A DNA stretch of 39,456 bases from assembly GCA_017475035.1 (NCBI GenBank), contig JAFVGK010000035.1, positions 1 to 39,456 of the forward strand. The letters are read 5' to 3'. Below are positions 4,839 through 25,520 of this stretch, in pieces. Origin of the DNA: Blautia sp. GTDB taxonomy: Bacteria; Bacillota; Clostridia; Lachnospirales; Lachnospiraceae. The translations under genes were made by a program, and so were the position numbers. Under the pieces are notes generated by a model, which was given only the letters and a program-made list of their open reading frames with translations, had not been told where the DNA came from and did no database searches. How positions within the stretch are numbered: position 1 is the first letter of the stretch; each line of letters starts with the position of its first letter.

Positions 4839-6631
4839 ACTGCGATTCCCTCCTTTTTCATCGTTGCTGCGTTCTTCCTTACCTGCTGCATCCATCTGTT
4901 CAGCCAGTCTTTCACTGTTTCCTTATCGGGCTGGCGATCGTAGGCCGCATAATACTGCACTACGCTCTTGGTGGTTGCTTCGATCGTGTAATATGGTGTC
5001 TTCCGGTCATCGGTCTTTCTCATGAACAGGATGAAGCTCTCTCTTCTGGCCATCGCTGACATGTATCTGTCGGATGCTCCTACACAATGATGCTGAAGCT
5101 GTCCCTCTATCACTATGTCCTTATAGCTGCGCGGGATCTCGATGCAATATCCGTCCTTTTCCCAGGAGAACAGCTGCTTATTGATCTTGTAATCCTTCCG
5201 GATGCCGGCAAAGTGTGATTTCTTTGCTTCCAGTTCCTTCAGGCGCTGTGCGGCTCTTTCTGCATCCCGCATCGCATTGATCTCTTCCGTGTATCTGTCA
5301 TGGAACTCTTTCCACCGTTTATTCCGATATATGATCTCATCATGGATATCGCTTCCTCGCTGTTCAGCCAGGTCAAGATAATCTCTGTACATGGTCACGA
5401 CAGCCGCCGGTGTACGTCCGCCCTTGTTCTTTATGACCTTATAGATGTGCATGAAAGGGAGGCCCTTTCTCATGAGCAATTCCCAATTCTGCTTATTCCA
5501 GCTGTTCACGCACTTCTCGATGATCTTCAGATCCGCAGGCCGAAGCTTCTGGTTCTCATCCTCTTTCATCATGCAAAGGCTTCTCCATCCTCCGTTTGCT
5601 TCCTTGAGGTATACAAGCTGCTGGGGAGTGATCCCGAGATATCTGTCCAGGTGCTTTTCTCTGCGGTCAATGCCAGCCGGGATCTGTCCTTTGATGAACT
5701 CAACAGCCAGTTTATTCAATCCGGCCTTCAGGATGTGCTCAAGATCTTCGCTGTTCCAGACCGACCGCAGGACAAATGACCATCCTGTCTCCGGGCACAG
5801 TTCGGAGAGCTTTTTCAGAGTCTGTATCTGATGATCTTTATATCCGAGGGTGTCAAGATTGCCGGTGAAGAGATAATTGTTCTGCTTCAGCTGGTAAATG
5901 CAGGAATCGCCTTTTTTATCCGCCCACTTCTGATTGGCACCATAAAGGGAATAGCTGTATCCGTAAGCATAATTCTTTTCTTCCCAGAAGCCTCCGGGAA
6001 TATCTGCAATGCCTCTACAAATCTCTGTTACAATAACTTTGTCTTCGCGCTTGTCTACCAGGAACCGGCGCTCCATGAATCCGCCCTCGATCTTCTGTAC
6101 CATCTGGATCCCGGTCGCCCAATGGCCTGTTATGGGAGCGACCTTTTTACAGAATGCCGCAAAGCCTTTCGGAAGGTTTGGCGTGATGCTCCTGAACCTG
6201 TCTGTTATCCTCTTGATCTTCCTGTCCCTTGCAGCCAGTCTCTTGTCATCACTGACCTCATTCTCCATGCGGATGATGGCATAACTTATAGTGCCGTATA
6301 TCTTGCACTTATTTTTACCGCAGAACTTAATGACCGCATCCCGGTACATGGGATATTCTTTGTCCGGACGTCCGATTCCGCCCTGATATGGTTCTATGAG
6401 GGTTCCCAGCTTGCATTTGTCCCATTCGGTCGTGTTCTCGCAATATGTCCACCAGTTTTTCTTTGTGGCGAAGTGTCTGAAAACCAGCTTTCCCTTCTTC
6501 CAAACATCCGTCTCAATGACCTTGCCTTCACTGGTCTTGATGATCTTGCCCGTGAGGATGACACTGTTGCCTCTCGCATCCGCTTTCGTGATCATCACAG
6601 GAGGATTGGCCAGAAGTTCCGCTTTTTTCAC
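4835..6631 (-). CDS. PcfJ-like protein
   Basis: 598 residues. The C-terminal ~130 residues carry the PcfJ signature: GQLQHHCVGAS, then SFILFMRK, TPYYTIE and VVQYYAAYDRQP. PcfJ-like proteins are known from conjugative plasmids and many Clostridia mobile elements, with no firm biochemical role. The start is a GTG overlapping the upstream stop (GTGA), with AAGGAGG ahead. The neighbour upstream resembles PcfK/AcrIIA9 proteins, the usual genetic partner. The N-terminal ~450 residues carry no motif I recognise. Confidence 0.8.
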   Translation of the reverse strand: MKKAELLANPPVMITKADARGNSVILTGKIIKTSEGKVIETDVWKKGKLVFRHFATKKNWWTYCENTTEWDKCKLGTLIEPYQGGIGRPDKEYPMYRDAVIKFCGKNKCKIYGTISYAIIRMENEVSDDKRLAARDRKIKRITDRFRSITPNLPKGFAAFCKKVAPITGHWATGIQMVQKIEGGFMERRFLVDKREDKVIVTEICRGIADIPGGFWEEKNYAYGYSYSLYGANQKWADKKGDSCIYQLKQNNYLFTGNLDTLGYKDHQIQTLKKLSELCPETGWSFVLRSVWNSEDLEHILKAGLNKLAVEFIKGQIPAGIDRREKHLDRYLGITPQQLVYLKEANGGWRSLCMMKEDENQKLRPADLKIIEKCVNSWNKQNWELLMRKGLPFMHIYKVIKNKGGRTPAAVVTMYRDYLDLAEQRGSDIHDEIIYRNKRWKEFHDRYTEEINAMRDAERAAQRLKELEAKKSHFAGIRKDYKINKQLFSWEKDGYCIEIPRSYKDIVIEGQLQHHCVGASDRYMSAMARRESFILFMRKTDDRKTPYYTIEATTKSVVQYYAAYDRQPDKETVKDWLNRWMQQVRKNAATMKKEGIAV

Positions 6632-9472: not shown

Positions 9473-10339
9473 TCAATGCCCCTTTCTGATCAGCCCGAGG
9501 ATCGTATCTTTTATCCCTTTTATTGCATCGAGGATCCCCGGCTTTCGTTTCTTATTTCTGTTCGGCGGGATTTCCTCTGTATGCTCTTTTGAGGTTGCGC
9601 CCGCGCAATTTCCCACCTTTTTCATTCTGTAAAAGCGATACGGACGGCCTGTCACATCACTGACGCCCAATCTCACCGTATCTCTTTCCAGTGTCCATCC
9701 CGGAGGAGTGACGATGTCCTTCCGCAGCTCCCTCTCCCAGATGCGTTCGACCTCGATCACCGGCTTCTTCAGATTCTTGCTGCACTCATAGTTCCTCTTG
9801 ATCTCTTCTCCGGTCGTCTGCTCTGTCTTCACGATCCACGACTTGACCATGTAATTTGCAAGATCTTCATACTGGCCATCCGTGTTCAGAGGCTTGATGT
9901 TCACAACACCGTTCCAGCATCTCTGGAGAAACATCAAGGGAAGCTCTCCGGCATGAGATATCACAGCATGGATATGCCGGGATCCTCTCGGACCGATCTC
10001 GACCGCATAGATATACTTCAGCTCATATCCATGCAGCTTGTATTCATGCCGGAGCCGTCTCAGGAAGAGAGCTGCTGCCCCTTTCGTTTCCAGCAGTGTT
10101 TCGGGCTTCTTATCATCTTTTCCCCAAGAGAGTGTTACCAGAGCATCCCGGCCATCAACAAAATTCTCATTCATGAGCCATCTCAGATGCTTTTTCTTCC
10201 GCCTGATATATGCCTCTCTTGCCTGCTCCGGTGTCAGCTTCTCTTTCTTCTTTCTCTTGTCATGGATCCCCAGGCGATTGGTGAAGTATTCCTCAACTTC
10301 CATCGTTCCGCCTGTGTATATGGTTTTCCGTATATACAT
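9473..10339 (-). CDS. HUH-endonuclease replication initiator (Rep)
   Basis: 288 residues. Seen features are VTLSWGK, then YAVEIGPRGSRHIHAVIS with the HUH pair H122/H124, and LANYMVK with Y163 as the likely nucleophile in a YxxK setting. These match the three motifs of rolling-circle/HUH Rep proteins. The family nicks one strand at an origin and stays linked to the 5' end through the Tyr. GAGGG precedes the ATG at 10339. It lies directly below a ~1 kb repeat-rich non-coding region with a strong palindrome, a candidate origin. The basic C-terminus fits DNA binding. Confidence 0.75.
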   Translation of the reverse strand: MYIRKTIYTGGTMEVEEYFTNRLGIHDKRKKKEKLTPEQAREAYIRRKKKHLRWLMNENFVDGRDALVTLSWGKDDKKPETLLETKGAAALFLRRLRHEYKLHGYELKYIYAVEIGPRGSRHIHAVISHAGELPLMFLQRCWNGVVNIKPLNTDGQYEDLANYMVKSWIVKTEQTTGEEIKRNYECSKNLKKPVIEVERIWERELRKDIVTPPGWTLERDTVRLGVSDVTGRPYRFYRMKKVGNCAGATSKEHTEEIPPNRNKKRKPGILDAIKGIKDTILGLIRKGH

Positions 10340-11408: not shown

Positions 11409-12065
11409 CTACGCCTTTTCTTCTTCCTTTTTCTTCCGGCCTCTCTTAGGCTTTTCTTCGGTCGGCTCCGAATCTGACAGGTCCTTCCATGTGAAGCGTC
11501 CAGCACCGCTGTTGTGCCACTGTCCGATGCCGTTCAGCTTCCCGTAATTAAGCCACTCGACAACAGCCTTCATCAGATCATCCTTCAGAACCTGCACTGT
11601 GAATGTGATCTTGGTGCCGGCAGGGCATGTCTCGGAGTTGGCCAGGGCAATTCTTTCTCCCTGTGCCGTCTGTGCCCGGAGAGGTCTCTGAAGATTGCCG
11701 ACCTCACCCTCAAACTCAAGCGGGATCTTCCTCTCTTCGACAAATACCAGGCCGTCGATATACTTCTTGTATGACTTGATCTTCTCGGACTCTGTATCCT
11801 TGACATTGCGGAGCATCCCGCAGGCGTGCTTGACGAATCCCTTTATCTGGTAATCATAGAGAAACGGCTTTCCATCCTCTGTGCGAGGGAACACCGTCAT
11901 GTCTTTCTTTTCGACTTCCTCAGCTCCCAGAGCTGCGACCTCTTCCTCTTTGGTCTGTGCATCAGGTGCCTTGGATGCTATGAACTCCGAATGAAGTTCA
12001 GGATTGCCGGAGGCCGTTCCCAGAATGGCCTCCATGAATGTGATCTCGACTTTCATTTCTCTCAT
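11409..12065 (-). CDS. Conserved-looking early phage protein of unknown function
   Basis: 218 residues. Landmarks are MKVEITFMEAILGTASGNPE, FIASKAPDA, MTVFPR, FLYDYQIKGFVKHACGML, RPLRAQTAQGERIALANSE and GIGQWHNSGAGRF near the end, then a Lys-rich tail. I recall similar proteins in other Clostridia phages but no function. The Gly-rich C-terminal loop and the beta-alpha pattern are loosely like RAMP/Cas5-Cas7 proteins, which is a guess. AAAGGAAA precedes the ATG. It sits between the repeat region and the small early genes. Confidence 0.65.
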   Translation of the reverse strand: MREMKVEITFMEAILGTASGNPELHSEFIASKAPDAQTKEEEVAALGAEEVEKKDMTVFPRTEDGKPFLYDYQIKGFVKHACGMLRNVKDTESEKIKSYKKYIDGLVFVEERKIPLEFEGEVGNLQRPLRAQTAQGERIALANSETCPAGTKITFTVQVLKDDLMKAVVEWLNYGKLNGIGQWHNSGAGRFTWKDLSDSEPTEEKPKRGRKKKEEEKA

Positions 12066-12122
12066 TGTGCTTTCCTTTCCGGTGTGCTATAATGACACCA
12101 AACATAATCTGTCATAGTTTCT

Positions 12123-12152
12123 GAGCCGTTAGTGTTCCCAGCACTGCGGCTC
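12123..12152 (-). other. Stem-loop in intergenic region
   Basis: GAGCCG (12123-12128) pairs with CGGCTC (12147-12152), and an inner AGTG/CACT pairing extends the stem. It directly follows the stop codon of the upstream gene on the minus strand. There is no T-run after it, so it is not a clear terminator; mRNA processing or stability is possible. Confidence 0.45.
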
Positions 12153-12471
12153 ACCAATTTTCTTCATCCGGTTCAGGCACATTTGCGGGCCACATTCTCC
12201 CAACCTTCTTCCCGGTCTCCCTGTCACGGCCATATTCATCCGGAATCTTTGCGGCATCCGCCTGCTGCTCCATGTTTTCTGCATCCTCCGCGATGCCCTC
12301 CATGAACATCTGAATGTGCTCAAGGTTCTTCTGGATTTGCGCATTTATCTGCAACAGAAATATTTCAGTATTGAATCCTTCATTAGCAGCATCAGCTCGT
12401 CCCTTCTTGGTCATCTCCAGTGTCTCCGCTACAAGTTTCTTGGTCATTTCCACCGTCTTCGATAACTTCAT
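12151..12471 (-). CDS. Helical hypothetical protein
   Basis: 106 residues from the ATG at 12471, chosen because AAGGAGG lies six bases upstream. The sequence is mostly alpha-helical and charged (MKLSKTVEMTKKLVAETLEM) with a C-terminal Pro-rich end. No domain is recognised. It overlaps the end of the 3D-domain gene by about 80 bases in another frame. Confidence 0.6.
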   Translation of the reverse strand: MKLSKTVEMTKKLVAETLEMTKKGRADAANEGFNTEIFLLQINAQIQKNLEHIQMFMEGIAEDAENMEQQADAAKIPDEYGRDRETGKKVGRMWPANVPEPDEENW

Positions 12472-12826
12472 CTGTTCCTCCTTCTTCTGGTTCAAGGATC
12501 TCGATGTATCCTTGCTGAGTCATCTGGTAACATTCCTTTTTGGTCGGTCGCCAGATATCAACCGTTTTCCCCTGTCTGATTCTCTTGCCTCCGGTGTCGC
12601 AGATCTGGAACTCACCGATCAGCTCCATATTCGCGTTATAGATCCGGCAGGTCTTTCCAATGTCCTCCCTCCTGTATGCAACTGCTCCCTCATGAACTTC
12701 CTCACCGTTTGCCATTACGCCGGAGAGACAGTATCCCGTGATCTTGACCGGGATCACCTGCGGCTGCGGTACCTGTAATGGAGATACAAGCAACGCCACC
12801 GACAGGATCAGCGCAACGCACCTCAT
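12392..12826 (-). CDS. Secreted 3D-domain (beta-barrel) protein
   Basis: 144 residues from the ATG at 12826, with GGAGG just upstream. A signal peptide or membrane anchor is clear (CVALILSVALLVSPLQV). The following ~85 residues (VKITGYCLSGVMANG, GAVAYRREDIGKTCRIYN, FQICDTGG, KTVDIW) fit the 3D/RlpA-like double-psi barrel found in cell-wall-acting proteins. The protein would be exported. Its presence in an early operon suggests envelope modification or exclusion rather than lysis, which is inference. The acidic C-terminus overlaps the next gene. Confidence 0.7.
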   Translation of the reverse strand: MRCVALILSVALLVSPLQVPQPQVIPVKITGYCLSGVMANGEEVHEGAVAYRREDIGKTCRIYNANMELIGEFQICDTGGKRIRQGKTVDIWRPTKKECYQMTQQGYIEILEPEEGGTDEVIEDGGNDQETCSGDTGDDQEGTS

Positions 12827-14104: not shown

Positions 14105-14482
14105 ATGGAGACATCGGAAATAATCAGAACACTGTGTAAAGCAGAACATACCTCTGTAACCAAGCTGGAAGAGACTCTTGGTTTCTCTAACGGTTCCTTG
14201 ACCAAAAGCAAGGACATTGGATCAAGCCGTCTCTTTGTGGTGGCAAAGCACTTTGGCGTTTCTATGGAATATCTTATGACCGGAGAAGACGCGTCTGCTG
14301 CCTCGCGCCCGCACCCCATGCTTGATGGTTGTGCGCTGACTGCTGAAGAAATCGAACTTTTACGCGGATTCCGTGCTGCAATATATCCAGTGCGTAAAAC
14401 TATGCTATTCCAAGCAAATGAAGCTCTAAAAGGGGATATGGAGAAATCGTCAAGTTCCGCATCAAATGCTGAAACAGCATAG
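14105..14482 (+). CDS. XRE-family phage repressor (short, no peptidase domain)
   Basis: 125 residues. Residues 1-60 form an XRE helix-turn-helix (SVTKLEETLGFSNGSLTKSK, then LFVVAKHFGVSMEYLMTG). The rest is helical with a Ser-rich tail. The S24 self-cleaving peptidase domain of many CI repressors is missing, so induction probably depends on another factor, such as the KilAC antirepressor at 8041-8808. It is transcribed with the SWIM gene and integrase. GAGG precedes the ATG. Confidence 0.85.
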   Translation: METSEIIRTLCKAEHTSVTKLEETLGFSNGSLTKSKDIGSSRLFVVAKHFGVSMEYLMTGEDASAASRPHPMLDGCALTAEEIELLRGFRAAIYPVRKTMLFQANEALKGDMEKSSSSASNAETA

Positions 14483-14496
14483 AAAGGAGAGTCGTC

Positions 14497-15396
14497 ATGA
14501 GTACAGCACAAGAGATATGGGCAAAATGGGATCCTGCACAGCATGAGACAGAATACGCGCAAAAGCGCATAAAATCAGCCCAAAGCGCGAAGCTCACGCC
14601 AGTAAGCATTAACCGCGAGGAAATGTGCGGGCATTTTCAGGGAAGTTATGGGAGTTATGATACCTGGCTGACTGAATGTCAGTGCGTTGATTTTGCTAGG
14701 TCTCAGAAGCCATGCAAACATATATACCGTCTAGCAATGGAGCTGGGTGTATACTCGGCTAATTTTTCCACAAACAAGAACGCCATTCCAACTCAAGGCT
14801 CTCAGAAGAAGATCCCTCTTGAATATACTGTTGAGCTTATTGATAAACTCCCGATATCTGCTCAGGATGTTCTATATGATGTTGTTTTCAGATCCACCAG
14901 AGAACAGCCGGAATACTGGATTGAGCGCAACAGTGATTATACCGCTCTAATAGCATCTGATCTGGTTAGGGAATGTGCGCATGATCCCGCAGACCGCAGG
15001 TTCGCTTTTGGAAAAGTCAATGATCTGAAGCGCGAACTGAAGAGTCGAGGGCTGGAATATGATAAATCTTTGAAGAAAGAACCTCTCTGTAAGTTTTGTA
15101 CCGAGCACTATCCTGATGAAATGGCGAAGATTTATCCGGAGCTTTTCCCTGTGATGATCAATCCCGATTTTTCACGCACTCATATTCATAATTATCTGAG
15201 TCAAACGTCAACTGAAAGGTATTGGGCCGAGCATAAAGATGAATATATTGAGGACAGTATGCCAAGCGAATATGCTGACTGCCCCCAAAAATGGGGTGAG
15301 TGTTTTAATTGGCAAAGACTTGATGACCAGGAAGAGCAGAAGCCGCCCGTTCAGAAGCCGTCTTTGGTGAATCGGATACGCTCATTTTTTACTTGA
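14497..15396 (+). CDS. SWIM zinc-finger protein, lysogenic cargo
   Basis: 299 residues. A SWIM motif is visible: C61-x-C63 ... C73-x-H75 within ECQCVDFARSQKPCKH. Around residues 165-205 (FGKVNDLKRELKSRGLEYDK) there is a SAP-like helix pair. The C-terminus has further Cys/Trp residues. It lies 14 bases after the repressor with GAAAGGAG upstream, and before the integrase, so it should be expressed in the lysogen. The biochemical role is unknown. Genes in this slot often protect the lysogen from other phages, which is inference. AT content and codon use look higher in AT than in the structural genes. Confidence 0.75.
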   Translation: MSTAQEIWAKWDPAQHETEYAQKRIKSAQSAKLTPVSINREEMCGHFQGSYGSYDTWLTECQCVDFARSQKPCKHIYRLAMELGVYSANFSTNKNAIPTQGSQKKIPLEYTVELIDKLPISAQDVLYDVVFRSTREQPEYWIERNSDYTALIASDLVRECAHDPADRRFAFGKVNDLKRELKSRGLEYDKSLKKEPLCKFCTEHYPDEMAKIYPELFPVMINPDFSRTHIHNYLSQTSTERYWAEHKDEYIEDSMPSEYADCPQKWGECFNWQRLDDQEEQKPPVQKPSLVNRIRSFFT

Positions 15397-15430: not shown

Positions 15431-16573
15431 ATGGCCAACACCAAGTATAAATTCAATGAGAAGCGGAAGGAATGGTATACGCTTGTCTGGGATGGAACCT
15501 ATGATGCCAAAGGCAAGAAGCATCGGAAATTCATCTCATCGAAGAAATCTTCCCGGGATCTGGAGGAAAAGGTCAATGCTATGAAGGCTGCGGTCAACTC
15601 CCGATCCGCAGTCGAGTATTCATCCATGAGCTTCTACGACTACGCCGTGGATTGGGTGAATATCTCAAAGGCCACCAAAGAGGAGTATACCAAAAAGCAG
15701 TATCTGGGAACCGTGAAATACTTCTCCAGCCTCGACAATATCAAGATTGGAGAGATCCGACATTCTCACTTCCAGAGGATCATCAACGAGAACGCAGAGC
15801 ATCCCCGGACCTGTCAGCTCATATCCATGACATTCAGACAGATTGTCAAGGCCGCCGCGCGTGACCATCTGCTCTCGCGTCTCGATGTGGATGATCTTCT
15901 CCAGGATGTATCCATGCCACACTACGAGCGAACTGAACGCAGGCCGCTCTCCACGATAGAGAAGGACGCCTTGATGAAAGCTGACTTTGATATGCGGAAT
16001 GAGGCTTTTGTCTTTATCCTGTATTATCTCGGTCTCCGGAAGTCAGAGGCCCTGGCTCTCATGCCGGAAGATTTTGATTGGGAGAATAAGGTCGTGCGGA
16101 TCCGCCGCGCGGTCATCTTTGTGAGCGGGAAGGGCACTGTCCGGGATTATCCCAAGAGCCACAATGGCATCCGGTCAGTTCCGATCCCGGATGCGATGAT
16201 CCCGCACGTCAAAGATTTTGTTGAGGCATCCGAGGGATTGATCTTCAGGAACCGCAGCGGGGATCCGATGTCCTTCTCCGGTTATGATCGGATGTGGGAC
16301 AGCATCATCACCACGCTCAATATCGCGGACGGATATAAGCCGAACGCGAAAAAAGACAGGAAGCCGCGCCGGATCACTGACCTCACCGCGCATATCTTCC
16401 GCCATAACTACTGCACAGAGCTTTGTTATATGGTACCGAAGGGCCATATCACCACGAAGAAGATCGCGCAGATATTCGGTGATACAGAAGAAATGGTCCT
16501 GAAGATCTACAGTCATATCGTTGAAGAAAAAGAGGATGCCGCCGGAGCTGTCAATGCAGCATTCCAAAACTGA
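15431..16573 (+). CDS. int: Phage tyrosine integrase
   Basis: 380 residues. The N-terminal ~60 residues are a beta-rich arm-binding domain (FNEKRKEWYTLVWDGTYDA). A core-binding domain covers about 65-165 and the catalytic domain 170-380, with R203 (GLRKSEAL), K242, H321-x-x-R324 (HIFRHNY) and Y360. The usual LGH box reads FGD, as in many phage integrases. It would integrate at the Thr-tRNA core at 16729-16773. The repeated TTGCTTACA boxes flanking that core are the likely arm sites. AGGAG lies before the ATG. Confidence 0.96.
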   Translation: MANTKYKFNEKRKEWYTLVWDGTYDAKGKKHRKFISSKKSSRDLEEKVNAMKAAVNSRSAVEYSSMSFYDYAVDWVNISKATKEEYTKKQYLGTVKYFSSLDNIKIGEIRHSHFQRIINENAEHPRTCQLISMTFRQIVKAAARDHLLSRLDVDDLLQDVSMPHYERTERRPLSTIEKDALMKADFDMRNEAFVFILYYLGLRKSEALALMPEDFDWENKVVRIRRAVIFVSGKGTVRDYPKSHNGIRSVPIPDAMIPHVKDFVEASEGLIFRNRSGDPMSFSGYDRMWDSIITTLNIADGYKPNAKKDRKPRRITDLTAHIFRHNYCTELCYMVPKGHITTKKIAQIFGDTEEMVLKIYSHIVEEKEDAAGAVNAAFQN

Positions 16574-16591
16574 CATTTTTCCCGCGATTTT

Positions 16592-16638
16592 TTGCTTACA
16601 AAATGCTTACATCTTGTTTTGCTTACACGTTGCTTACA
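16592..16638. repeat. Integrase arm-type sites, left of core (4 copies)
   Basis: Four direct copies of TTGCTTACA or ATGCTTACA at 16592-16600, 16603-16611, 16619-16627 and 16630-16638. They lie between the integrase stop and the attachment core, where phage arm sites occur. Confidence 0.75.
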
Positions 16639-16645
16639 TGTATTT

Positions 16646-16665
16646 TTGACCACTTTTGACCACTT
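16646..16665. repeat. Tandem 10-bp repeat in attP arm
   Basis: TTGACCACTT occurs twice in a row (16646-16655 and 16656-16665). The position between arm sites and core is where excisionase or bending proteins bind in other phages. Its role here is inferred. Confidence 0.5.
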
Positions 16666-16680
16666 CGACACACTACACAA

Positions 16681-16722
16681 AAAAGCGGGAACCCTTATTT
16701 TATCTAGGGTTCCCGCTTTTCT
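16681..16722. terminator. Bidirectional terminator next to att core
   Basis: A perfect 15-bp stem, 16681-16695 with 16706-16720, around a 10-base loop with T-runs on both strands. Rightward it ends integrase transcription. Leftward it lies right after the tRNA 3' fragment, so on integration it can serve as the terminator of the rebuilt tRNA gene. Confidence 0.85.
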
Positions 16723-16728
16723 TGGGAG

Positions 16729-16773
16729 AGCTGGAGACGAGACTTGAACTCGTGACCTACTGATTACGAATCA
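16729..16773 (-). other. attP core: 3' part of tRNA-Thr(CGT)
   Basis: On the minus strand this is the 3' portion of a tRNA: the anticodon CGT (16766-16768), the 3' side of the anticodon stem, a T-arm with ACGAG/CTCGT around TTCAAGT, and acceptor strand CTCCAGC. The 5' half of the tRNA is absent and the bases beyond 16773 do not pair properly. This is the pattern of a phage attachment core that restores the host tRNA upon integration. Integrase arm boxes lie on both sides, which marks it as attP. Confidence 0.85.
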
Positions 16774-16823
16774 ACAATAAAAAACCCGTTCCAACCCGAA
16801 AACAAGGCATTTTCCGCTTTATT

Positions 16824-16843
16824 TTGCTTACAAATTGCTTACA
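16824..16843. repeat. Integrase arm-type sites, right of core (2 copies)
   Basis: Two more TTGCTTACA boxes at 16824-16832 and 16835-16843, identical to those on the left side. Their presence on this side shows that both arms of attP are together here. Confidence 0.75.
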
Positions 16844-16898
16844 TGTTGTTTTTATACCGTATTAACTATACCAAAATACGGCACTTCATGCAAGCACA

Positions 16899-17894
16899 TC
16901 ACGCGACACACTGCTTGTACTCTGCATCTATCTTATCCTGGACAACCTTAGCGTAGATCAGAGTCGTGTCTGACTTTGAGTGTCCGAGTATGACCTGAAG
17001 CACGACCAGTTCCATTCCATGCGCGAGAGCATTTGTGGCAAAAGTATGGCGGAACCTGTGAGGGAACACATGATCGACGCCGGCACGGATCCCGATGTTC
17101 TTCACAATCTTCTCTATGCCCTCGCTGGTCAGAGGCTTATACGGTCTCCTGGTGCTTACCAAAACATGTGGATCCATATCTTTGCGCTCTGCAAAATATC
17201 TTTTTAGCGCGAGAACCGCAGCCGCATTGATAGGCACTGTCCGATGCTTTTTGCCCTTGCCATAAAGCTTGATCTTCCTGCGATGGAAGTCAATGTCTTC
17301 CTTCTTCAGGCCTGCCAGTTCAGAGACGCGACAGCCGGAAGCGAGAAGAGTCTCAACTATAGCTGACTCTCTCGCGGTCCGGCATCCATCCTTCAGGAGC
17401 TCCACCTCTTCATCAGAGAATGGCTCGCGCTCCTTTTCCTCGCACTTGATTGGACCGATGGCCGCCATCGGGTTCATCGGGATGTATCCTTCCGCGTGCG
17501 CCCATCCAAAGAATGAATTGAGAGCGTGCCTGCGGGAGTCGAGCGTCTTATCACAGATCTGCCGCTTCTCCTTCAGCTGGTACAGATAGACCCTCATATC
17601 ATTGGTAGTGATGTCTGCGAGATCCTTCTGAATGGTGGTCAGCATGTCCTCGATGATTATCTTGTATAGGTACAGAGTCTTCTCCGAGAGAGACTGGATC
17701 TTCTTACTGACCATATAAACCTTATAGGCCGCCGGGAATCCGTCATACACAGCCAGACGAGTCTCCTTCGGATGCACATCATAATCATGGAGCAGGACGC
17801 GCACTTCCTGGGAGACGGTGTCGAGATATTCATCCGGGATCCTTCCGCTCAGACGTATCATCAGACGATTAACGAGATTTGTACTGTTATCCAT
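16899..17894 (-). CDS. XerC/D-like tyrosine recombinase, candidate fibre-tip invertase
   Basis: 331 residues. All catalytic residues are present: R189 (ASGCRVSELAGL), a Lys in KGKKHRTVP, H279-x-x-R282 (PHRFRHTFAT), H305 (LGHSKSDTT) and Y314. It is unlike the integrase, with no arm-binding N-terminal domain. An extra ~60-residue N-terminus (NLVNRLMIRLSGRIPDEYLD) resembles recombinases common in Clostridia mobile elements. AAGGAGG precedes the ATG. It lies beside attP and ~4.2 kb from the invertible fibre tip. Possible jobs are fibre-tip inversion, dimer resolution or a second integration system. Recombinase identity is sure; the substrate is inferred. Confidence 0.92.
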   Translation of the reverse strand: MDNSTNLVNRLMIRLSGRIPDEYLDTVSQEVRVLLHDYDVHPKETRLAVYDGFPAAYKVYMVSKKIQSLSEKTLYLYKIIIEDMLTTIQKDLADITTNDMRVYLYQLKEKRQICDKTLDSRRHALNSFFGWAHAEGYIPMNPMAAIGPIKCEEKEREPFSDEEVELLKDGCRTARESAIVETLLASGCRVSELAGLKKEDIDFHRRKIKLYGKGKKHRTVPINAAAVLALKRYFAERKDMDPHVLVSTRRPYKPLTSEGIEKIVKNIGIRAGVDHVFPHRFRHTFATNALAHGMELVVLQVILGHSKSDTTLIYAKVVQDKIDAEYKQCVA

Positions 17895-21881: not shown

Positions 21882-22138
21882 TTCTTCTTCCTCCTTTTAT
21901 GAAACGGGGTGATACTTCTTTTCTTGATTCTCTCACATCTTAAAGTGTCTTTTCGTGTCATCTTTTTATATACAGATGGCCGCCATATTGCGCTTCTCGG
22001 AGAGGCTTGGCGGACTTGTTCGGTTGTTTTTGGGCATATTTTGCAATTTTCGGGCATATTTTGCAAGTTTCTTGCAAAATCAGTGCCATTTTGGTCATTT
22101 TCCCCACATTTTTTCCATCACCTGATTGTTAGAAATAT
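21882..22138. other. Gap left of invertible segment, with repeats
   Basis: No convincing gene is seen; the minus frame 21878-22066 starts within repeats and lacks a ribosome site. The stretch GGGCATATTTTGCAA occurs twice, 20 bases apart (22032-22046 and 22052-22066), and TTTTGCAA/TTGCAAAA form a perfect 8-bp inverted repeat at 22059-22079. These might be protein sites for the recombinase or a late regulator, or signals ending fibre transcripts. Confidence 0.45.
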
Positions 22139-22151
22139 AGCGATTTAGCGT
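22137..22151 (+). repeat. Left inverted repeat of fibre-tip switch
   Basis: The plus strand holds TAGCGATTTAGCGT (22138-22151). The same sequence with one change, TAGCGATTTAACGT, lies on the minus strand at 22742-22755. It encodes Ser-Asp-Leu in both fibre tips in the same phase. It is the proposed left crossover site. Confidence 0.7.
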
Positions 22152-22405
22152 ACAAAGTTATCAATGCGGGTGTAGCAAATTCAGTAACGGTAACAAATTC
22201 TAGGTGGGTTCTCCCTAATACCGTACTAAACGGATATACAGGGAATTATTTATGTATATCAGGCTTGCCAGGTGGCGAAACGAACGCCGCTATATCTTAT
22301 AATAATTTAATCGGTATAGGCTGGACATTTAAGGACGCAAACGACCATTCTCCTACGACTTTTAGCGGCACTTATAATATAGCCTTTGCCATTATAAAGG
22401 TATAG
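22139..22405 (+). pseudogene. Silent alternative tail-fibre tip (no start codon)
   Basis: Open frame of 88 codons on the plus strand ending at TAG 22403-22405, with no ATG or ribosome site and a stop just upstream at 22130. It starts in the repeat (Ser-Asp-Leu) and reads AYKVINAGVANSVTVTNSRW, with later parts GNYLCISGLPGGETNAAISY and TYNIAFAIIKV. The beta-rich, Gly/Asn/Thr-rich composition is that of a fibre tip. Inversion of the segment between the two repeats would place it in frame after residue 353 of the fibre at 22461-23804. It is not decayed, so I regard it as a stored cassette, not a dead gene. Confidence 0.75.
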
Positions 22406-22460
22406 TCGGCTCGTTATCGTGCCGCTTATATGCGGTGCGTTTTCGGTGGTTTTCGGAGCA
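22406..22460. other. Spacer between the two convergent fibre tips
   Basis: 55 bases between the stop codons of the silent and expressed tips. It contains CCGC/GCGG with a 6-base loop near 22421-22435, followed on the plus strand by GCGTTTTC. A bidirectional terminator for whichever tip is active is possible but weak. Confidence 0.4.
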
Positions 22461-23804
22461 TTACGAAATTTGAATAACGTCAAATGTTCTACCAACATTC
22501 TCAATTTTGTAAACATGCCCGACATAATACCCGAAAGCAATTCCATGACCATAATTATTGTTGACGTTTTGCATTATTATGGTTAGCATATACAGCCCAC
22601 CAGCCCTTGCCGTAGAATAAACATTTATGATTTCTGTCCCCGCTTGGAACGTAATATTCGCGAGTAATTGCTGAATCGTAGTAGTGTTATCGGGGTCGAG
22701 CGAAGTGGTCAAGAATCGCGATCTAAATCCTGTCGTTAAGGACGTTAAATCGCTACTTATCGAAGATAGGTCATCGTCAACGGAAGCTTTTTCCAGGTTC
22801 GTACTGGTACTCATCGTCTCGTTGTATGCAATCGGGGCCGTAACCTTGTATCTCTGATCCGCGCACTCGATATAAACACGATCTCCCGTATCGTATCCAT
22901 CGGCGGCCGTGCATTTAAACTCGTGTTCTACATTGTCCGTAATGGACTTAACGCTTGCCTTGCGTGCAACTTCGTCCGATAATTCAACCTCTTCGCAATT
23001 CTTCCCGGCTCCTTCAGGAGTTATGGTAGATCCCGCTGCTATCTTCCCTTCACTCGCTCTGTAAAGCTTATTCTGATGGCCGAAATACCTACCGCCATTG
23101 ACCGGGATAAGCAACGTGTCCGGTTGATTGATCACTTCAGTTATTGCCCGGCTTGCCTGTGCGCCGAGTGTCTGTAATGCCAGGTCTGAAGTTTTAGACC
23201 ACGTACCGCCGTACTGTACTTTAAGAGTTCCGTCTTCACTGTCAAACTTGTCCGCGATCTCGTTGATAGCCTTGACAATATTGTCTTTGTCTGAAGTATC
23301 CAGGTCGTCCAGGTCTCCGAGTTCAGACTTAAGCGCATAGCTATCAGACTCAAGTGCGATTTGCACAACAAGATCATTTGCGGATGAAATTACGAAGCTC
23401 TGGACAATCTCTGCCGGAGATGTGCCATTGTAAGGAGGGAACCAGTCACCCTGAGAAGCTGCAACAACAGCGATATTGAACAGCACCTCTGTTGAGCTGT
23501 CGGATCCCTGTTGCGCATATAACCCCAGCTCGTTCATGTAGTATCCTGTTACAAGCGTCACATTGGAGATGACTGCTGTGATCTTGCAGGCATTTGCCAC
23601 CGCTCTCTTGCTTGACAATGATACTGACTGTTTCTGATTGATCAGCGCCGTCCTAACCTTCAGTGCCGCCGGTGTCTTGTCTGTGTGTACGCCGTCACCT
23701 GTGACAACTCTGGTGAATACTATCGGATCACCTGCTGCCTCGCAGGCCGCTATAAGGTTCACACCCGCATCTGTCACAACTGCATTGTTAAAAACCTGTG
23801 CCAT
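22461..23804 (-). CDS. Tail fibre (collar-type N-terminus, switchable tip)
   Basis: 447 residues. The N-terminal ~170 match the P2 gpH/tail-collar fibre start (NNAVVTDAGVNLIAACEAAG, YYMNELGLYA, VFTRVVTGDGVH). The middle is helical and beta-rich with DLDDLDTSDKDNIVKAINEI. The repeat TAGCGATTTAACGT falls at Ser351-Leu353. The last 94 residues (TSLTTGFRSRFLTTSLDPDN onward, ending FDVIQIS) are the currently expressed tip, in more AT-rich DNA than the shaft. It binds the host surface. The next gene upstream is gpI-like and overlaps by TAATG. A mate for the tip lies inverted at 22139-22405. Confidence 0.85.
   Translation of the reverse strand: MAQVFNNAVVTDAGVNLIAACEAAGDPIVFTRVVTGDGVHTDKTPAALKVRTALINQKQSVSLSSKRAVANACKITAVISNVTLVTGYYMNELGLYAQQGSDSSTEVLFNIAVVAASQGDWFPPYNGTSPAEIVQSFVISSANDLVVQIALESDSYALKSELGDLDDLDTSDKDNIVKAINEIADKFDSEDGTLKVQYGGTWSKTSDLALQTLGAQASRAITEVINQPDTLLIPVNGGRYFGHQNKLYRASEGKIAAGSTITPEGAGKNCEEVELSDEVARKASVKSITDNVEHEFKCTAADGYDTGDRVYIECADQRYKVTAPIAYNETMSTSTNLEKASVDDDLSSISSDLTSLTTGFRSRFLTTSLDPDNTTTIQQLLANITFQAGTEIINVYSTARAGGLYMLTIIMQNVNNNYGHGIAFGYYVGHVYKIENVGRTFDVIQIS
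22742..22755 (-). repeat. Right inverted repeat of fibre-tip switch
   Basis: Minus strand TAGCGATTTAACGT, inside the fibre gene at Ser351-Asp-Leu-Thr. It differs from the left copy at one base. The DNA between both copies is about 600 bases long and holds two convergent fibre tips. Confidence 0.7.
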
Positions 23805-24385
23805 TACTCTTCCTCCTCTTCATATTCAGGAATATCCGGTGCAATCAGTGATTGCTTCTGCTCAGCCCCGATGTGCATATAGTTATATATGGTCCACACA
23901 AAATCGATACCATCCATGATCGCGGATTGCCTTTTGACCTTCCGCAGGATCTCCACGAACTTGTCTGGGATCTCAATGTGGATGTCTTCAGAGAGAACAT
24001 TGACCTTGAAGTGTCCGGGAGTACCGCCGTACTCAAACCACTCCAGCACTTCCGAGTCACCATAATAGTCATTACAGACCTGCTCGACAGCCTTCTTGGT
24101 ACCGAGCTGCATGTGAACATTGGTCGCGCTCTTGATCAGGTTACGCTTGACATCAAGATCCGCGTCGGGATCATACCAGACAATGCCGTTCTCGACCGCC
24201 AGTACGTCTAGGATGTGCTCCGGGAGATTATCGACCATTGCTGTGACCTCTGACGCATCCGCGAGATCAATGATGGCCTGTACTGCTTTTTTTAAGGCAT
24301 AACTCAAGCACTCGGTGTCGATATCGCCTGAAAATGGCGTACCGAGCAAAATGTCATGCAGTTCACCATTGTACAGATCAATCAC
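23804..24385 (-). CDS. Baseplate/tail protein I-like
   Basis: 193 residues if started at the GTG at 24385, eight bases after GGAGG; an ATG at 24400 with a weak site is the alternative. It has LYNGELHDILLGTPF near the start and a WYDPDADLDVKRNLIKSATN block typical of P2 gpI-like proteins that link fibre to baseplate. It ends in an acidic tail. It lies between baseplate J and the tail fibre, in the P2 order J-I-H, and overlaps the end of J. Confidence 0.78.
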   Translation of the reverse strand: MIDLYNGELHDILLGTPFSGDIDTECLSYALKKAVQAIIDLADASEVTAMVDNLPEHILDVLAVENGIVWYDPDADLDVKRNLIKSATNVHMQLGTKKAVEQVCNDYYGDSEVLEWFEYGGTPGHFKVNVLSEDIHIEIPDKFVEILRKVKRQSAIMDGIDFVWTIYNYMHIGAEQKQSLIAPDIPEYEEEEE

Positions 24386-25520
24386 TTTCCAGTCCTCCAT
24401 AGTTGACCGTCTTTGTTCCGAGTCTTGCAACAGCTGTATCACCTACCGCTGTATGCACAGGGTATGTGATGACAACTCTCTTCGCGCCGGCATCCATGAC
24501 ACGTCTCACCAGCTCCGAAGGATTGATGTCAAGGCCTATCGTGCCGGTCTGCCATGCCACATAATCATTGATCGCCTGTGCGACCTCTGACTGGATTATC
24601 GTTGCCTGGGAACTGTCAGACTGTGCGATGTAATATGTCAGATCGATATTGAAACTGGTGGTAGTCGGTGACTTGACCGTCACATTATCTGTCAGCGGCC
24701 TCTTATCTTCCGATGACAGATACGCCTGACAGCCAGACTTAAACTCATTGGTCGGGAGGGATCCGTCTTCCATCAGAACATAAATATCAACATTGCAGGC
24801 CGAAGGTGTCTTGATGACGATGGAACCGACATCCGGAGAGTATGCTCTGACATGATATTCATAAGACTCAATGCTTCCTGCCGTGGAATAACTTCCCGGT
24901 GCATAATATACGCGCTCTGCAAGGTCTTCATCGTCTTCGATGTCGGCTCCGCCGGAAGACTCTGTGACATTGCTCACACTTGAGATATAAGGAACAGAAT
25001 CGGTCAGTGTGGTGATCTCACCGACGCCGTATCCGTTTCCATCCTCTCCGACCGTCTGACATGTGCAGGGCACATCGACATAAAGGTTTCCTGCCGTGAT
25101 CTCCTGGTATGAATCGGATGCGAAATACAGCTCATCGACCTTCACTCTCGTTCCGGCAGGGATCCCAACAGCGGACCCGAGAGCTTCGCCAATTGAAAAC
25201 CGCATTGTCACGGTTGCAGCTGTTGCAGGCTTCCTTGTCACGCCCTTCAGAGCAGCCATGTTATCAAGATACTCATCATAAGCATACTTCAGGAGATTCA
25301 GCTGACCACCACGGTTCACATAAAGCGCCAGCTGATAGAGCTGGACAGCACACGCATTGATCATCAGACCGGTGCGCTCACCCTGCTTGATCATGATCTC
25401 TTTTCCCGTCAGCTCACGGTATCTGTCCTTGTACCATGTGGTCAGATTGGCCTTCATGTTATCCAGGGACATGCCATCGATGAAACTAACCTCCGGCAGG
25501 TTTTCTATTGCTGCTATCAT
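24378..25520 (-). CDS. Baseplate assembly protein J
   Basis: 380 residues. The pattern MNACAVQLYQLALYVNRGGQ-like N-terminus, a central LTDSVPYISSVSNVTESSGG followed by DIEDDEDLAERV, and C-terminal YVAWQTGTIGLDINPSELVR match the Mu gp47/P2 J family. It forms the baseplate wedge with the gp25-like protein. GGAGGG precedes the ATG. It is followed by I and H in the P2 order. Confidence 0.92.
   Translation of the reverse strand: MIAAIENLPEVSFIDGMSLDNMKANLTTWYKDRYRELTGKEIMIKQGERTGLMINACAVQLYQLALYVNRGGQLNLLKYAYDEYLDNMAALKGVTRKPATAATVTMRFSIGEALGSAVGIPAGTRVKVDELYFASDSYQEITAGNLYVDVPCTCQTVGEDGNGYGVGEITTLTDSVPYISSVSNVTESSGGADIEDDEDLAERVYYAPGSYSTAGSIESYEYHVRAYSPDVGSIVIKTPSACNVDIYVLMEDGSLPTNEFKSGCQAYLSSEDKRPLTDNVTVKSPTTTSFNIDLTYYIAQSDSSQATIIQSEVAQAINDYVAWQTGTIGLDINPSELVRRVMDAGAKRVVITYPVHTAVGDTAVARLGTKTVNYGGLESD

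Follow-up and report, generated by a model that had tools for sequence, protein, structure and literature searches.

The best-known phages that switch receptors by inverting DNA use serine invertases; Gin, Cin and Min of Mu, P1 and p15B, for example, are serine recombinases that choose the fibre tip by inverting a segment. Diversity-generating retroelements are common in the receptor-binding proteins of gut phages. Tyrosine recombinases act in the Rin shufflon of Bifidobacterium and E. lenta prophages, whose sites are TTCCCTAACCC, with ttccgtat in E. lenta, according to the sections of the two reports used here (PMC6109161, PMC8778435). For the haloviruses phiCh1, phiH1 and ChaoS9, the passages at hand describe inversion of tail fibre genes by the tyrosine recombinase Int1 (PMC6471424), and excerpts on the pneumococcus describe inversion of hsdS by PsrA/CreX (PMC4948785, PMC6620402). 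Two surveys, each seen in extract, are relevant: one of invertible sites in bacteria, which counts hsdS and prophage tail fibres among its sites (PMC5903667), and one of gut invertons, which ties a Clostridia-dominated group to a single group of tyrosine recombinases (PMC11892184). The passages of a paper on a Clostridium clostridioforme prophage show no inversion (PMC11318856). Fibre switches run by tyrosine recombinases are already known from the Rin and halovirus systems, and the switch described here is a further variant.

The window, i.e. the whole stretch of DNA that was analysed, is 39,456 bp long and makes up one entire contig (C188) of an assembly of 5.08 Mb in 200 contigs. A first-pass annotation had proposed that a phage varies its receptor-binding tip there by means of an invertible segment, and this proposal is supported by a second phage, by relatives of the recombinase, by a shared site motif and by a cassette present at two loci of one genome. 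Judged from these sequence comparisons, segment 22138-22755 very probably constitutes a two-state invertible cassette for the fibre tip, flipped by a XerA-like tyrosine recombinase encoded on the same contig (Table 1).

Table 1. Features of the proposed fibre-tip switch, with one bracketed tip from another genome.
Feature	Position	Strand	Description
Tyrosine recombinase, proposed integrase	15431-16573	+	380 aa; PF00589, 48.7 bits; phrog_1 integrase, residues 7-376
Proposed attP	16578-16852		tRNA/tmRNA 3'-half-like core, direct repeats (proposed arm-type sites), hairpin
XerA-like tyrosine recombinase	16899-17894	-	331 aa; PF00589, 124.9 bits; NF040815 XerA, 223.5 bits (cut-off 220)
Inverted repeat, outer copy	22138-22151	+	TAGCGATTTAGCGT
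Stored alternative tip	22139-22405	+	88 codons, SDLAYK...AIIKV, without start codon
Spacer	22406-22460		55 nt between the facing stops of the two tips; partly palindromic
Tail fibre gene	22461-23804	-	447 aa; PF12571 tail-collar fibre N-terminus, 28.2 bits (cut-off 23)
Expressed tip	22464-22754	-	97 residues from Ser351, 94 past the common SDL
Inverted repeat, fibre-gene copy	22742-22755	-	At Ser351-Asp-Leu; reverse complement TAGCGATTTAACGT; proposed recombination site
Tail_P2_I baseplate gene, upstream of fibre	23804-24442	-
Baseplate_J gene, upstream of fibre	24378-25520	-
Bracketed tip, genome G119	L016 2399-3073 = L087 9229-9903

The anatomy on which the first-pass annotation had built its proposal could be recovered in full. 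The 14-bp inverted repeat with one mismatch was found again, its copies agreeing at 13 of 14 positions, and can be extended without gaps to 23 nt (22129-22151/22742-22764, 78%). Coordinates and reading frame place the right copy at Ser351-Asp-Leu of the fibre, as claimed, and an intact frame of 88 codons does run from the left copy on the opposite strand towards the stop of the expressed tip. Codon phase at the repeat is the same for both tips, and a recount returned the 94 and 85 residues that were said to be swapped, the stored tip having 88 residues when SDL is included. The constant part of the fibre gene spans approximately 22756-23804; GC content is 40% in both tips versus 49% in the fibre shaft and in the window. 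The switch thus defined comprises one expressed and one stored cassette, with two matches to the site core in the window. The stored tip had no match in Pfam, PHROGs, the viral_contigs pattern scans or the phage collection, and neither tip was matched in the latter at E values up to 1. The fibre N-terminus was matched in 20 of 299 same-family genomes, own genome included.

Mechanistically, the XerA-like enzyme would recombine the two short inverted repeats, and the resulting flip would join the constant shaft of 350 residues in frame to a tip of either 97 or 88 residues. The recombination site would fall within the codons of the linker that joins shaft and tip, with the crossover expected within TAGCGATTTA, and the stored tip would stay silent until inversion since it has no start codon. 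The two tips presumably bind different receptors, so the state of the switch could decide which host surface a phage lineage binds. A structural model of the expressed tip, computed with its homologue from the second phage, combines helices with beta strands (pLDDT 77, dropping below 50 over the first residues), the first helix lying at the repeat codons. Its structure matches were weak (viral matches at E=0.0025, uncharacterised, and E=0.014, a tail-collar fibre; best PDB match at E=0.41, phi812 baseplate). Modelled alone, the stored tip reached a pLDDT of 55, which makes the model unreliable and its structure matches uninformative.

The second phage, L002, is IMG/VR contig IMGVR_UViG_3300028797_000253, of which a stretch of 16.9 kb was examined. 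It shares with the window the gene order baseplate J, fibre, XhlA-like, LicD, XerA-like and integrase; the endolysin and Tail_P2_I proteins of the window had no match in it. Its fibre is 46% identical across residues 3-356, with homology ending near the repeat, and at the homologous codons it carries an inverted repeat of its own (9048-9071/9664-9687, 24 nt, 88%) that encloses 592 nt, compared with 590 in the window. The junction residues read Ser-His-Leu-Thr-Asp in L002 versus Ser-Asp-Leu-Thr-Ser in the window, and both tip frames of L002 are again in the same codon phase. The silent tip of L002 resembles the expressed tip of the window (39% over 70 aa, E=6e-12 as a single comparison; E=7e-6 by tblastn), so that homologous tips occupy opposite positions in the two phages; comparison of the expressed tip of L002 with the stored tip of the window detected no relation. 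Of the relatives in both orientations that the first-pass annotation asked for, L002 is an indirect case, sharing the arrangement but having the homologue of the window's expressed tip on the opposite strand. Aligned between the phages, the spacer scored 34 in the same orientation versus 27 when flipped, with shuffles reaching at most 26. This differs from the prediction of one clean flip and, like the lack of kinship between the other two tips, counts against a switch; with the spacer slightly better unflipped, one clean flip between the window phage and L002 is unproved, and tip replacement must also have occurred between them. In pattern scans of viral_contigs, the fibre, alignment A3 and the recombinase alignment A4 each returned only the L002 contig, while no contig was returned for the stored tip, for the L058 or L059 recombinase, or for the shaft stretch by itself. 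Scans of genome_contigs gave no match with A3 and one distant, partial locus (29%) with A4.

Both phages encode two convergent tyrosine recombinases, which are strongly conserved between them (90% identity for the XerA-like protein, 91% for the 380-aa protein); Pfam detected an arm-binding domain in neither. The first-pass annotation had tentatively named the XerA-like protein as the tip recombinase, and this fits better than the 380-aa protein, which we read as the integrase of the adjacent attP. The putative attP region includes 51 consecutive bases identical in the window and L002, and its core resembles tmRNA in the window (E=1.7e-4) and tRNA in L002 (E=0.036), both below the curated score. 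Repeated elements of the TGTAAGCAA type flank the core. In the window these elements resemble TGTAAGCAA, whereas their L002 counterparts (14359-14634) resemble TGTAACCAA, the same base differing in all six aligned copies, as if the putative arm sites had changed in concert. The fibre inversion site has a third match in L002, likewise beside attP (14411-14425, ATAGCCATTTGACGG, two mismatches), for which the site-core scan found no counterpart in the window. Since attP appears uninterrupted, the contig is probably an unintegrated phage; the attP core has no other match in the assembly, and host assignment of the contig is therefore provisional. The protein beside attP being probably the integrase, the XerA-like one is left for the switch, a division of labour that we infer from this arrangement. 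Elsewhere on the contig, an open frame at 9473-10339 encodes a REP_ORF2-G2P replication-protein domain (PF23343, 40.8 bits), and a LicD-family gene (PF04991, 18314-19480; 69% identical relative in L002 at 11946-12806) lies between the endolysin and the recombinase and is possibly a phage gene for modification of the host surface.

Relatives of the XerA-like recombinase were matched at E<=1e-30 in 63 of 397 same-family genomes, own genome included. We read 25 loci (L058-L082), namely 20 genome stretches, mostly best matches, and five records from phage and plasmid collections. Alternative tips bracketed by repeats, in tail or tip-like genes, occur at ten loci (L058-L064, L066, L068, L076), and hsdS lies beside the recombinase at seven others (L067, L071, L073, L074, L077, L081, L082), called by tblastn with the HsdS of pRV500 or, for L071, by likeness to L067. 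L075 has long repeats and was left out of both classes; neither bracketed tips nor hsdS were recognised at L065, L069, L070, L072 and L078-L080. Tail context was provided by the gene itself or its neighbours at L058, L059, L060, L063, L064, L066 (just below the PF12571 cut-off, with matches to tail families in PHROGs) and L076; L068 and L061 have weaker tail context, and the nearby genes tested at L062 yielded no tail genes. In 16 of 20 pairs, a set that includes the window and L002, both frames stay open for at least 70 codons and agree in phase; each of L061, L062, L064 and L066 contributes one miss. A tree of 24 recombinases, built without L060-L062, groups the window protein with those of L002, L058, L059 and L078 (95/96), four of these five being fibre-linked, and places the hsdS-linked proteins in a separate group (100/99) together with L070 and L072.

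Several of these loci depart from the two-state layout. More than two repeat copies are present at L064, L066, L068 and L076, and these loci may be shufflons with multiple cassettes, served by the same recombinase family. At L078, the fibre gene beside the XerA-like recombinase has a single inversion site (6285-6300); no second copy was found there, the partner cassette having perhaps been lost or not yet gained. A gene of the chloramphenicol acetyltransferase family (PF00302, 3950-4627) lies near the cassettes of L062.

The best evidence of inversion at such sites comes from L061 and L062 of genome G013. Their recombinases are 93% identical to each other (38% to that of the window) and the neighbouring cassettes 96% identical, yet the cassette is reversed relative to the recombinase, and the repeats are where the alignments break off (L061 8425 and 9501; L062 2191 and 2216). 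The two loci are at different places in the genome, so the contrast is between paralogues.

The bracketing repeats share an arm pattern, TAAAT-AGCN-ATTTA with variants at the fibre-type loci and TAAAY-4 nt-ATTTA at the hsdS-type loci. A matrix was built, without the window and L002, from 16 fibre-type sites of seven loci (L058-L061, L063, L066, L076), sites that are partly eye-picked and non-independent; L062, L064 and L068 were left out. Across both strands of the window, its top position was the fibre-gene arm (22746-22761, GATAAGTAGCGATTTA), with 14.25 bits versus 11.21 for the runner-up (13.3 versus 11.18 when weighted by locus). The fibre-gene arm also ranked first in the L002 stretch. 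A score as high as that of the window arm was reached in 31 of 100 simulated windows; it is therefore the position that counts and not the score. When each locus was left out in turn, a true site ranked first in five of seven, L060 and L061 being of deviating type, and the known arms of L064 and L068 were not ranked first by the matrix. With a matrix from hsdS sites only, the window arm ranked 13th. The PsrA/CreX core ATTATGGGAA was considered as a link and rejected, since the published sequence, as excerpted, differs.

Another enzyme might invert the segment, either the 380-aa integrase or a host invertase acting in trans, which we regard as unlikely. The XerA-like gene is beside attP, 4.2 kb from the cassette (3.6 kb in L002), with the XhlA-like, endolysin and LicD genes in between, and the fact that the recombinase adjoins the cassette in ten fibre-type relatives and not in the window counts against our reading of the switch. 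Candidates abound in the genome bin, with 23 PF00589 matches, of which two are on the contig, and 19 matches to the serine recombinase family PF00239. None of the latter is on the contig and none is in the L002 record, and a serine-invertase switch of the Gin/Cin/Min kind was rejected on these grounds. For bifidophages, a small inverted locus with no flanking recombinase is reported (PMC6109161). A further case, the only comparable one among 13 repeat pairs checked with frames at L003-L022, comes from genome G119, where a fibre relative at L016/L087 shares the N-terminal domain; a 19-nt imperfect repeat there flanks an alternative tip in the same phase (the two tips having 112 and 111 residues, common junction SSKIGH) with a site that differs from that of the window. 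The XerA-like recombinase had no match in the 11.2 kb available, which stop at the contig end, so that bracketed tips in fibres of this family do not depend on any single enzyme, and this may be a fibre switch with another recombinase. Against another enzyme stand the XerA relatives that adjoin such cassettes with a related site, and the 380-aa protein itself, an integrase-family match over nearly its full length that flanks an attP-like region with repeats. We infer that the window phage itself inverts the segment and that its XerA-like recombinase is the enzyme at work.

The switch could alternatively be decayed or frozen, the stored tip being the remnant of a tip exchange or duplication after inversion was lost. 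The left half of the motif is missing from the outer repeat copy in both the window and L002, which together with the unclear orientation of the spacer and the lone site retained next to the recombinase at L078 speaks for such decay. The stored frame is nevertheless intact over its 88 codons and in the right phase, where an 83-codon open run has a probability of approximately 0.003 at that sequence composition; L002 retains the arrangement despite diverged tips and shaft, and both window repeats have kept the common core. We consider a frozen remnant quite improbable.

Still less credible is a chance repeat between the fibre gene and an unrelated open frame. Comparable repeats are not scarce: 14-mer pairs spaced 200-2000 bp apart and differing at no more than one position account for 25 listings in the window, several of them shifted copies of one pair. 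A strict frame test required each repeat pair to open convergent frames of at least 75 aa that share a phase and do not overlap. Of 27 pairs in the window 4 passed (all but that of the cassette probably spurious), as did 1 of 12 in L002 and, across 21 control loci, 3 of 42; the test does not include the pairs of L063 (frames overlap slightly), L064 and L066 (second tip 70 residues). Repeat-plus-frame anatomy is hence not rare, and significance comes from the relatives and not from the window alone: coincidence is made highly improbable by L002, with the same architecture at the same codons and a homologous tip placed oppositely, and by a site motif derived from other loci. A diversity-generating retroelement acting on the fibre tip, of which the excerpt of PMC8778435 gives an E. 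lenta example, has a negligible claim, as none of the seven reverse transcriptase matches (PF00078) of the bin is on the contig and the two tips are unlike each other, whereas a template and its mutated copy would be alike.

An invertible cassette under the XerA-like recombinase would add a tyrosine-type fibre switch with its own site type, at several loci of one more bacterial family, alongside relatives that adjoin restriction specificity genes. It offers a site open to testing together with a candidate for the enzyme, and where fibre tips from metagenomes are used for host prediction, it gives reason to check both orientations. The literature covered, which does not extend to most subscription journals or bioRxiv, has neither this site type nor XerA-linked fibre tips recognised for Lachnospiraceae. 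We also advance, tentatively and with slightly more doubt than belief, that one XerA-like invertase lineage is a portable tool for swapping domains, its AT-rich palindrome (TAAAT-4 nt-ATTTA-like) doubling as a linker, used in phage tips and in hsdS of the same family. If true, phage attack and host restriction would diversify with the same machine, and the site would be planted at two-domain junctions of tips and of hsdS specificity subunits.

Among known systems, those acting on hsdS share with the XerA relatives a recombinase beside an inverted partial hsdS, the xerA of pRV500 being itself one of the loci read (L082), and the hsdS loci read have a TAAAY-4 nt-ATTTA palindrome similar to the fibre-type site. 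The targets differ, as the hsdS invertases act on a restriction specificity gene and the proposed target in the window is a PF12571 fibre adjoining baseplate genes. Int1 of the haloviruses, in the sections used, is likewise a tyrosine recombinase whose inversion changes the expressed fibre copy, as is proposed for the window; unlike in the window, its gene is central between two fibre genes, in archaeal viruses (PMC6471424). With Rin, as described in the available passages, the window shares a Xer-like phage tyrosine recombinase distinct from the integrase (PMC6109161, PMC8778435), a constant receptor-binding N-terminus with alternative C-termini in opposite orientation (a single alternative in the window), short crossover repeats and the size of the exchanged parts, the alternative C-termini of Rin having 95-100 residues and the window tips being similar. 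The sites themselves contrast, TAAAT-4 nt-ATTTA-like in the window versus those of Rin. Rin, finally, has several cassettes and a flanking recombinase according to the same passages, whereas the window has two states and a recombinase 4.2 kb off, beside attP.
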